Positions 42,181-44,556 of a DNA stretch of 64,000 nucleotides are shown piece after piece. The notes under the pieces were generated by a model. The model had not been told where the DNA came from, did no database searches, and was given only the letters and a program-made list of their open reading frames with translations. Origin of the DNA: Terriglobia bacterium. GTDB taxonomy: Bacteria > Acidobacteriota > Terriglobia > Terriglobales > Acidobacteriaceae. The stretch is taken from positions 186,001 through 250,000 of the forward strand of contig JAIQFP010000003.1 in the NCBI GenBank assembly GCA_020073165.1, read 5' to 3'. Position 1 is the stretch's first letter. Each line of letters opens with the position of its first letter. The translations under genes and the position numbers were made by a program.

Positions 42181-42744
42181 ATGCTCGGGAGACTGCTAAA
42201 GATCGCTCCGCTGCTTCTGCTGCTGACCGTGGCAGCCGCACAAACCATCCCGTCGGGAACCAAGCTGACGGTGCGCATGGGACAGCAGATCAATTCGGGA
42301 AGCGCTACCGCAGGCGAAAAATTCAATGCCACGCTGGCGCGGGATCTGGTGGCGAACGGCAAGACCATCGCAAAAGCGGGTGCGCCGGTACGGGGCAAGG
42401 TTACCTACGCCAAGTCCAGTGGACGGCTGCACGCACCGGGCGAGCTTACGCTGCGCCTGACCTCCGTCGAAGCGAATGGCAAGATGGTTCCCATCTCCAG
42501 CAGTGCGTATCACGCTAAGGGCAAAAGCCATACCAAGAGCAATGTAACCAAGGTCGGCGGTGGAGCGGCTGCCGGAGCGCTGATCGGCGGACTGGCCGGC
42601 GGAGGCAAAGGCGCCCTGATAGGGACAGCGGTCGGCGCTGGAGCCGGAACCGGAGTAGCCGCAGCCACGGGGAAGGAAGAAGCCGTAGTCCATGCCGAGA
42701 CAGCGATTACCTTCACCACCACCAGTACGGCACACGCAAAGTAG
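42181..42744 (+). CDS. Secreted glycine-zipper protein
   Basis: A strong Shine-Dalgarno (AAGGAGG) precedes the ATG. The 187-residue product has a signal peptide (LLKIAPLLLLLTVAAA). A beta-rich domain follows (IPSGTKLTVRMGQQINSGSATAGEKFNATLARDL...GAPVRGKVTYAKSSGR), then a glycine-zipper segment (GGGAAAGALIGGLAGGGKGALIGTAVGAGAGTGVAAATG). The zipper suggests membrane association or oligomerisation. The function is unknown. A GC hairpin with perfect 9-base arms follows the stop. Confidence 0.78.
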   Translation: MLGRLLKIAPLLLLLTVAAAQTIPSGTKLTVRMGQQINSGSATAGEKFNATLARDLVANGKTIAKAGAPVRGKVTYAKSSGRLHAPGELTLRLTSVEANGKMVPISSSAYHAKGKSHTKSNVTKVGGGAAAGALIGGLAGGGKGALIGTAVGAGAGTGVAAATGKEEAVVHAETAITFTTTSTAHAK

Positions 42745-42751
42745 ATAAAGT

Positions 42752-42772
42752 GGGCGGGTCCAAGACCCGCCC
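42752..42772. repeat. GC-rich hairpin GGGCGGGTC-CAA-GACCCGCCC
   Basis: Perfect 9-base arms, loop CAA, flank ACACA. It lies between the convergent glycine-zipper and peroxiredoxin genes and could terminate both. Confidence 0.65.
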
Positions 42773-42782
42773 CACACGGTTC

Positions 42783-43244
42783 TCAGGCCACACTCTTCAG
42801 GTATTCCAGCACTTCTGCGGCGTGCCCGTCCGCCTTCACGTTGTTGAAGACGTGCTTAATCTTGCCGTCGGGCCCGATCACAAAGGTAGTCCGCGCGATC
42901 CCCTTCACTTTCTTGCCATACATGTTTTTCTCTTTGATCACGCCGAAGGCCTCGCAGACTTTCCTGTCGGCATCTGACAGAAGAGTGAAAGGCAGGCTGT
43001 ATTTCTCCTGAAATTTCTTCTGTGCTTGTGGCGGGTCGGCAGACATGCCCAGGATCACGGCGCCTGCGTTCTGCAACTTCTTGTATGCGTCACGGAACCC
43101 GGACGCCTCTATGGTTCAGCCGGGAGTGTCGGCTTTGGGAAAGAAGAACAGCACCACCGTCTTGCCCCGAAAGTCCTTGAGCGACACGTTTTTGCCATTC
43201 TCATCGGGTAAAGTGAAGTCGGGAGCTTTATCATTGATATCCAT
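42783..43244 (-). CDS. bcp: Bcp-family peroxiredoxin with predicted selenocysteine at the active site
   Basis: Thioredoxin-dependent peroxidases of this family reduce hydroperoxides. The minus strand reads continuously from the ATG at 43244 (GGAGA upstream) to 42783, 153 residues, interrupted only by a TGA at codon 43 (43116-43118). The sequence around it is VVLFFFPKADTPG-TGA-TIEASGFRDAYKKL, so the TGA replaces the peroxidatic Cys of the TPxC motif. The second Cys of the E. coli pattern is Ser. Downstream sequence (VILGMSADPP, LPFTLLSDADRKVCEAFGV, RTTFVIGPDGKI) is intact. A SECIS-like hairpin follows at 43087-43106. Read-through as selenocysteine is the best explanation; a nonsense pseudogene is the alternative. 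Its start overlaps the divergent gene at 43243. Confidence 0.87.
43087..43106 (-). promoter_or_regulatory. Candidate bacterial SECIS element
   Basis: Starting nine bases after the TGA, the RNA can form GCGUC-CGG / GUU / CCG-U-GACGC. This is an eight-pair stem with one bulged U and an apical loop beginning with G. The loop lies 18-20 bases after the UGA; in E. coli fdhF the GGUC loop begins 19 bases after its UGA. The stem lies inside coding sequence (EASGFRDA), as bacterial SECIS elements do. Confidence 0.75.
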
Positions 43245-44556
43245 GAGGTTGTCTCCGTTACGCCAACCGTTATACCGCAGTGCGGGGCGGGCCGTCATCT
43301 TCGCCGGCCTGGCCTTGGTCCTGGCGCAAATTGGGGCCGCGCAGCTTGCCCGTAAACCCACCGCGAGCAAGGGGCCCCGCGCTCTAGCCCTGGTCGAACT
43401 GGCCCCGAATGGCAAGGCCCGCCTGATCCCGATCACCATCCTGTACGACGGCCAGTTCTATGACGCCAGCGCGTACAAAGCTTCACCGGTGCCGATGGCG
43501 CTGGAGTCGGGCACGGTCTATGAGGGGGAACGCACCGGGGTCTCGCAAGGCTTTTTCACCGTGGCGGGCGCGCTCCAGTTGAAGAAAACATGGATTGGCG
43601 AGGGAACGTGGCGAGCTGCAGGTGAAGCGCCCGCAAAGAAAACCATCGTATCCGCCAAGGCAGTGGAAGATGACATCGACGCGCCGCCCAAGCTGAGGCG
43701 CAGTCCAGAAAAGCCAGCGGGGCCAGAGTTGCCGGCTCCACAACCAACCGTCCCCGAGGCTCCGCCAGCGCCCTCGGCGAGCACTGCCACAGCCGCGCCG
43801 CCTGCAAGCGCTGCGGCTGCGCCTTCGCCCGCTCCGGAGGAAGATCGCGACCGCCCGGTACTTCGCCGAGGCCAGCAGACGCATCTGCCGGAGCCGTCCA
43901 CGAAAGCCTCGCAATCACAGGCCAAGGGAGCGCCCCAGGGGCTGAAGCAGCCTGCCAAGGCGACATCCAGCCCGTCGCAAGTCTTCCCCGCAATTTCCGA
44001 TGCTGGCGGCCCCGATCCGATGCCGTTCACCTACGACCTGAAGCCGGAAGAGGAGCAGCAGTTCCGCGCGAAGATGTTGGCGCTGGCCGCAGCTGAGGTG
44101 CTGGCACGCGTCAAGCAGTTGGCCTCGGAAGCGATCAGTCCGGTGCCGCCATCGCCCAGGGGAAGCAAAGCGACCAAGCCCGTTCAGCCCAGCTTTGACG
44201 ACGTCCAGTTCCGGATCTTTGACCTCGCGAGCAACAACGAGCCGGTGCTGGTACTGACTGCAAAAGCGCGCATGCCGCAGCGGCCGAACGCCACTGGAAC
44301 CGAGTTGCAGTACCTGGTAACTCTGGTGGCTCGGAACGACATTTACGCCGAATTGCACAAGGTACTGACCAATGTGACCGACACTCAACACCTGGATGTG
44401 ATTCCGCGAATGGAATTGATTGACGCGGTGGATGCCGATGGGGACGGCCGCGGAGACCTGCTGTTCCGCCAGACCTCCGATGCAGGCAGCGCATTTGTGA
44501 TTGACCGCGTGGTGGGCGACCGAGTGTACACGCTGTTTGAGGGGACGCCGGAATAG
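43243..44556 (+). CDS. Secreted proline/alanine-rich protein
   Basis: The ATG at 43243 gives 437 residues and a good signal peptide (RSAGRAVIFAGLALVLAQIGAAQ). The frame is open further upstream, but there it only antisenses the peroxiredoxin gene. A first domain (ALALVELAPNGKARLIPITILYDGQFYDASAYKASPVPMALESGTVYE) is followed by a long Pro/Ala/Ser linker (about residues 145-265). The C-terminal domain has an EF-hand-like AVDADGDGRGDLLF loop and may bind calcium. Its ATG and that of the divergent peroxiredoxin share CATG. No Shine-Dalgarno. The function is unknown. Confidence 0.78.
   Translation: MRLSPLRQPLYRSAGRAVIFAGLALVLAQIGAAQLARKPTASKGPRALALVELAPNGKARLIPITILYDGQFYDASAYKASPVPMALESGTVYEGERTGVSQGFFTVAGALQLKKTWIGEGTWRAAGEAPAKKTIVSAKAVEDDIDAPPKLRRSPEKPAGPELPAPQPTVPEAPPAPSASTATAAPPASAAAAPSPAPEEDRDRPVLRRGQQTHLPEPSTKASQSQAKGAPQGLKQPAKATSSPSQVFPAISDAGGPDPMPFTYDLKPEEEQQFRAKMLALAAAEVLARVKQLASEAISPVPPSPRGSKATKPVQPSFDDVQFRIFDLASNNEPVLVLTAKARMPQRPNATGTELQYLVTLVARNDIYAELHKVLTNVTDTQHLDVIPRMELIDAVDADGDGRGDLLFRQTSDAGSAFVIDRVVGDRVYTLFEGTPE

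Follow-up and report, generated by a model that had tools for sequence, protein, structure and literature searches.

The 64,000-nt stretch of DNA analyzed here (the window) almost certainly encodes a BCP/PrxQ-type peroxiredoxin with selenocysteine (Sec) as its peroxidatic residue, inserted by way of a SECIS element and SelB; this reading comes from sequence comparison. The locus is real and correctly read, the family of Sec peroxiredoxins is already known, and the evolutionary pattern is of some interest. Its less expected feature concerns residue 48, where Cys is nearly fixed in the Cys forms of the enzyme and often lost in the Sec forms. A Sec peroxiredoxin had already been proposed in a sequence-only reading of this DNA, and the sel genes of the genome, relatives with UGA or Cys at the same codon, and the coupling of SECIS-type sequence to UGA all support that proposal.

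A peroxiredoxin gene with UGA at codon 43

The gene lies on the minus strand at 43244–42783 and consists of 153 codons (152 sense codons and one UGA) followed by a terminal TGA. A GGAG resembling a ribosome-binding site, read directly from the sequence, is located 8 nt before the ATG (43253–43256, minus strand). The sole internal stop is the UGA at codon 43 (43118–43116, minus strand). Translated with TGA as U, the product has 153 residues, MDINDKAPDFTLP...PKADTPGUTIEASGFRD..., and the active site PxxxTxxC/U is present as PKADTPGU, with the UGA residue in place of the peroxidatic Cys of TPGC. The sequence-only reading had described a frame of 153 codons with one TGA on the peroxidatic Cys of a TPxC-type site; this stands, except that the minus strand had been omitted. 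The plus strand of 42783–43244 was tried as well and gives no sensible protein. As that reading also stated, ordinary ORF calling splits the gene, which appears in the ORF list as two fragments (43439–43116 and 43076–42783), and for this reason the enzyme is probably missing from many Acidobacteriota annotations.

Assignment to the family is based on profile and structure matches. The protein scores 173 bits against the model for thioredoxin-dependent thiol peroxidase (NF006960; curated cut-off 140, E = 3.8e-51) and matches AhpC-TSA at E = 1.8e-43, while the PrxQ model NF053650 gives 163 bits, below its cut-off of 260. Membership in PrxU (NF040737), which takes its name from the Sec peroxiredoxin of Eubacterium acidaminophilum, was rejected at 58.7 bits vs. 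a cut-off of 270; the likeness is that of the peroxiredoxin family. An AlphaFold2 model built from 28 aligned sequences has a mean pLDDT of 95.3, and its best PDB match is BCP 9a4d_B (TM 0.97); Burkholderia ambifaria 5enu and Xanthomonas campestris PrxQ are also among the best. Among the matches listed, the X. campestris PrxQ/BCP and 5enu entries have query TM values of 0.83–0.93 and 38–44% identity; unlike the present Sec form, both are Cys enzymes. In the model the UGA residue is near the start of helix 41–59, which also contains Ser48.

We compared codon 43 across relatives using 198 loci, which gave 174 distinct aligned genes once identical genes had been dropped before counting. The loci were chosen rather than drawn at random: the 30 best matches in family genomes, the 80 best matches among named relatives, 40 from the family listing (37 flagged for TGA, 36 of them with TGA at codon 43, plus 3 others), 28 from one further search and 20 chosen from another; duplicate copies of the same genome occur among them. 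Codon 43 is TGA in 65 of these genes and TGC or TGT in 109, so that all 174 have either UGA or Cys, an alignment result for which the sequence-only reading had called. That reading had also named scattered stops elsewhere in the gene as evidence that would speak against it, and the aligned stretch of the 65 UGA genes contains no further stop. The comparison decides how the UGA of codon 43 is to be read, since 65 distinct genes have a stop at this codon and no other. By dN/dS, codons 55–153, 3′ of the UGA, are under purifying selection, with values of 0.04–0.11 in seven of eight pairs (seven UGA–UGA, one UGA–Cys) and saturation in the remaining one.

A match at E ≤ 0.001 was obtained in every one of the 150 genomes sampled from the family (142 reach 5e-36 or better), and in 53 of them the best match has UGA at codon 43, a codon read in each case. 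One gene per genome, the best match, was judged; for non-UGA genomes the absence of TGA was taken from the listing flag, and codon 43 was read in those that were fetched. A best match is listed for 142 genomes, and five of the eight unlisted ones have selA. The selA gene exceeds its cut-off in 52 of the 53 UGA genomes vs. 34 of the 89 others listed (Fisher p = 2e-14, ignoring kinship), or vs. 39 of 97 if the eight unlisted genomes are counted as non-UGA. The one UGA genome without selA (G119) has selB at 380 bits, and its selA is therefore probably missing from the assembly.

These data bear on the possibility that the UGA is a nonsense change in a normal Cys-type BCP gene, produced by pseudogene formation or sequencing error. 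Such a change would fit the split in the ORF list, and TGC and TGA are one base apart. Yet the same codon is UGA in 65 distinct genes with no other stop, selection continues past it, a SECIS-type sequence accompanies it (see below), and the genomes that have it are associated with selA. The explanation is thus refuted, and we assign it a probability close to nil.

The nearest named relative among the best 80 listed is “Terriglobia bacterium isolate SRVP_17,” with 92% identity. Records of named relatives carry titles such as Acidobacteriaceae or Terriglobia; most are metagenome assemblies, and many appear from their sample names to be soil organisms. Outside the family, UGA at codon 43 occurs together with selA in four genomes (G339, G324, G458, and G332) that belong to f29, a distant family of the same phylum. 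The f29 loci L202, L203, L204, and L205 carry UGA-type bcp genes with a similar hairpin sequence, for which inheritance and transfer are both possible. Four loci flagged for TGA have Cys at codon 43 instead (L171 in G077, L206 in G510, L207 in G405, and L208 in G323). In L171 (G077:C72), a Cys-type bcp, two stops occur in the aligned frame shortly upstream of the active site; a frameshift, an assembly error or decay are the alternatives. In a phage search, 30 records contained stretches resembling BCP, none of them reaching 60% identity.

Sec machinery and the stem-loop after the UGA

The genome (4.6 Mb, 35 contigs, completeness 100) contains selA, selB, selD, and selC, the set for which the sequence-only reading had recommended a search, and each match is above its curated cut-off. 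The scores are 535 bits for selA (joined; contig C7), 370.7 for selB (contig C11), 341.5 for selD (joined; contig C2), and 70.3 for tRNA-Sec (contig C4), although 5 of 14 control genomes also give a match above the cut-off of this tRNA model; ARAGORN agrees on the tRNA and gives the anticodon tca. None of the four genes lies inside the 64,000-nt window, which contains no tRNA gene.

Two other genes of this genome have in-frame UGA codons. One is selD itself (L020, G000:C2:127687-128697), with UGA in AAG*ASKL, so SelD is predicted to be a selenoprotein. The other is an fdhA-like gene (L223, G000:C13:57951-59825, minus strand), with UGA in SCNRT*HAPSV, which is predicted to encode the third selenoprotein of the genome. 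Both motifs lie where these proteins usually have Sec. With 653 bits the fdhA-like gene is slightly below the Fdh-alpha cut-off of 666, and the first 47 model positions are unmatched there. Positions 1–52 of the same model match C13:55020-55175, about 2.8 kb from the gene.

The SECIS candidate begins 9 nt past the UGA and occupies 43087–43106 (minus strand). Folding bears out the structure described in the sequence-only reading, a stem of eight pairs with one bulged U and an apical loop that starts with G at nt 18–20 after the UGA. The loop is GUU (43096–43098, minus strand), and 62 of the 65 UGA genes and 18 of the 109 Cys genes have GTT here. The bulged U (43092, minus strand) belongs to the 3′ strand of the stem, at the third base of the Arg51 codon CGT. 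In the SECIS of E. coli fdhF it is the 5′ strand that carries the bulged U, a difference that counts against the SECIS reading. A search of Rfam over 42600–43500 gave only two matches, both far below the gathering score.

By published constraints, bacterial SECIS elements have a loop of 3–9 nt with G in the first two loop bases, a stem of 4–16 bp, a spacing of 16–37 nt and a minimum free energy (MFE) of −7.5 kcal/mol or lower (PMC13188914). The element here falls within these constraints, with a 3-nt loop beginning GU, a spacing of 17 nt, an MFE of −10.2 kcal/mol over the 20 nt of the stem-loop, and a stem of 8 bp if counted across the bulge (the upper stem, up to the bulge, is 3 bp). Over 40 nt the MFE is −11.6 kcal/mol. 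Shuffled sequences fold equally well in 19 of 200 cases over 40 nt and in 3 of 200 if only the 22-nt hairpin is taken, and among 2000 synonymous recodings 254 reach the stability of the native stem. In this single gene, stem stability alone is not remarkable.

It is across genes that SECIS-type sequence can be seen to accompany UGA. The constraint scan is passed by 55 of the 65 UGA genes vs. 8 of the 109 Cys genes. Codon 49 (Gly) is GGG in 56 of 65 UGA genes vs. 7 of 109 Cys genes, although at the other Gly positions GGG has a share of only 17% and 12%, respectively, and codon 47 is GCG in 49 of 65 vs. 9 of 109. The mean MFE of codons 46–54 is −10.4 kcal/mol for UGA genes vs. −6.5 for Cys genes, in the first 137 distinct genes (61 UGA, 76 Cys). 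The counts over all genes take no account of kinship; in independent pairs on the tree, GGG at codon 49 goes with Sec at a median p of 0.03 and GCG at codon 47 at 0.125. The ten UGA genes that fail the scan (L062, L067, L087, L160, L161, L162, L164, L165, L168, and L169) include two with Arg48, five with Ser48 and GAG at codon 49, and three with Cys48 and CUU at the loop place; in these genes the hairpin may be a variant or absent.

The same evidence speaks to whether suppression or a changed code might place another amino acid, such as Cys or Trp, at the UGA. Cys would restore a normal enzyme, and some Cys misincorporation may occur under selenium shortage. Against this stands the use of UGA as the terminal stop in 13 of the 65 UGA genes, the present one included, so UGA still means stop; moreover, tRNA-Sec (tca) and the four sel genes are present and a SECIS follows the codon. 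We regard such decoding as very improbable. Under Sec insertion, SelA, SelD, and tRNA-Sec would provide Sec-tRNA, and SelB, acting on the stem-loop behind codon 43, would deliver Sec at the UGA, as the parts present imply; the ribosome would then read past this codon to give the 153-residue enzyme.

Residue 48 and the resolving step

In E. coli-type BCP the Cys five residues after the peroxidatic Cys is the resolving Cys. Here that place is Ser48 (TCC; 43101–43103, minus strand), as the sequence-only reading had noted, and the codon lies inside the SECIS stem. The Cys at +5 of the E. coli-like 2-Cys subgroup is thus replaced by Ser, but a +5 resolving Cys does not define the BCP/PrxQ family as a whole, some members of which have none or have it elsewhere. 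In the 174-gene alignment, Cys48 is present in 108 of the 109 Cys forms, whereas the 65 Sec forms have Cys in 38, Ser in 15 (the present gene included), and Arg in 12. With independent pairs, the Sec form had lost Cys48 in about 4.4 pairs and the reverse held in 0.5 (median p = 0.22), a result no more than suggestive of a preferential loss of Cys48 in Sec forms.

The selenolate would attack the hydroperoxide to give a selenenic acid, which would most likely be reduced by an external thiol, either thioredoxin or a small thiol. We infer external resolution because Ser48 is unable to form an internal bond and 9 of the 15 Sec/Ser48 forms have no Cys97. Cys97 (42954–42956, minus strand) is the sole cysteine remaining in the protein, and it might take over the resolving role of Cys48. 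Its distribution argues otherwise: it occurs in 71 of the 109 Cys forms, where Cys48 is nearly always present as well, and in 12 of 38 Sec/Cys48, 6 of 15 Sec/Ser48, and 2 of 12 Sec/Arg48 forms (absent, that is, from 10 of the last 12). Cys97 is therefore no general substitute for Cys48 and would be the less likely partner; we consider this role for it unlikely.

Two known Cys enzymes are useful for comparison. PDB entries for X. campestris PrxQ name the mutants C48S and C84S, and Cys84 is presumably the resolving Cys of that protein; at the matching place (residue 79) none of the 174 genes has Cys. M. tuberculosis AhpE, titled a 1-Cys peroxiredoxin and by that title without a resolving Cys in its chain, resembles the query in fold, with query TM 0.81–0.85; it differs in being a Cys enzyme of another subfamily, with about 30% identity.

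Since codon 48 is in the stem, Ser48 and Arg48 might be driven by the SECIS RNA rather than by a relaxed need for a resolving Cys. In favor of this, the Ser forms fold in a shifted register that puts the bulge on the third position of codon 51, and codon 51 is CGT in 10 of the 15 Sec/Ser48 genes (and 7 of the 109 Cys genes) but in none of the 50 other UGA genes, all of which have CGC (38 of 38 Sec/Cys48 and 12 of 12 Sec/Arg48). The near-fixation of Cys48 in the Cys forms points the other way, and the RNA does not require the loss of Cys48, as 38 of the 65 Sec genes retain it. An RNA origin of the change is plausible but somewhat improbable, and RNA pressure and a relaxed need for the resolving Cys may both act on residue 48.

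Sec and Cys forms in Acidobacteriota

A tree was built from DNA with codons 43–54 omitted. The Sec/Cys label changes 13 times on it, at least 9 times on well-supported branches, compared to a mean of 52 for shuffled labels; gain, loss, and transfer look alike here because the tree is unrooted, quick, and made from one gene. As judged from this tree, Sec and Cys have been interchanged repeatedly in the Acidobacteriota bcp family, at least 9 times. Within the family, most genes with UGA have the SECIS and most genes with Cys lack it.

One Cys gene, L216 (G138:C132), is the only Cys form without Cys48, having Cys43 and Ser48. From codon 43 onward it is identical to its UGA relative L077 at 44 of 45 bases, with the one mismatch at the third position of codon 43, and it passes the SECIS scan. 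The simplest account of this sequence would be a recent change from Sec to Cys, with the SECIS left behind as a fossil and the resolving Cys missing. Other genomes of the same genus as L216 include G114, with UGA/Ser, and G063, with Cys/Cys. Two further Cys genes adjoin UGA genes on the tree: L174, next to L039 (support 91), passes the SECIS scan, and L066, next to L067 (support 99), fails it and keeps much of the SECIS sequence.

The fuller explanation, to which we give slightly less than an even chance, is that the Acidobacteriota peroxiredoxin has moved between Sec and Cys many times; that with Sec the resolving Cys would be dispensable, making the enzyme a one-selenium peroxidase served by an external thiol; that codon 48 would then be free to serve the SECIS hairpin in its Ser and Arg registers; and that L216 would be an intermediate state, just back at Cys.

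Sec peroxiredoxins have been counted in several surveys. One of them (PMC9312934) has an entry for “Peroxiredoxin (Prx), COG1225 (Bcp), TxxU” among its selenoprotein families, and a Sargasso Sea set has 43 sequences under COG1225 with TXXU (PMC1088965); the statement of the sequence-only reading that selenoprotein peroxiredoxins are known in other bacteria is thus correct, and the present gene joins an existing Sec family. It has the same COG and motif, and it differs in having Ser at +5 and in coming from Acidobacteriota. PMC9312934 cites a Eubacterium acidaminophilum paper for this family, so the COG1225 label may extend beyond strict BCP/PrxQ. Other counts are 12 Prx selenoproteins with five Cys-to-Sec events (PMC1794560) and 91 Sec peroxiredoxins in 78 organisms (PMC5029168), figures that the available parts of both sources give with no subfamily named. 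For Acidobacteria, three selenoprotein families and four selenoproteins are reported (PMC1794560), and for Occallatibacter riparius three known selenoprotein genes (PMC12013277). The table of PMC1794560 lists no Sec-to-Cys events for Prx, in contrast to the evidence of such a change with a fossil SECIS in Acidobacteriota bcp. Among the hits listed in a literature search that covered few subscription journals, we noticed no paper dealing with a Sec-BCP that has lost its resolving Cys or with a peroxiredoxin gene that retains a fossil SECIS.

This group of Acidobacteriota shows unusually clearly how a gene can switch between selenium and sulfur. Close Sec/Cys gene pairs allow direct tests of the benefit of selenium and of the role of the resolving Cys, and among such pairs are the three Cys genes that retain SECIS-like sequence (L216, L174, and L066).
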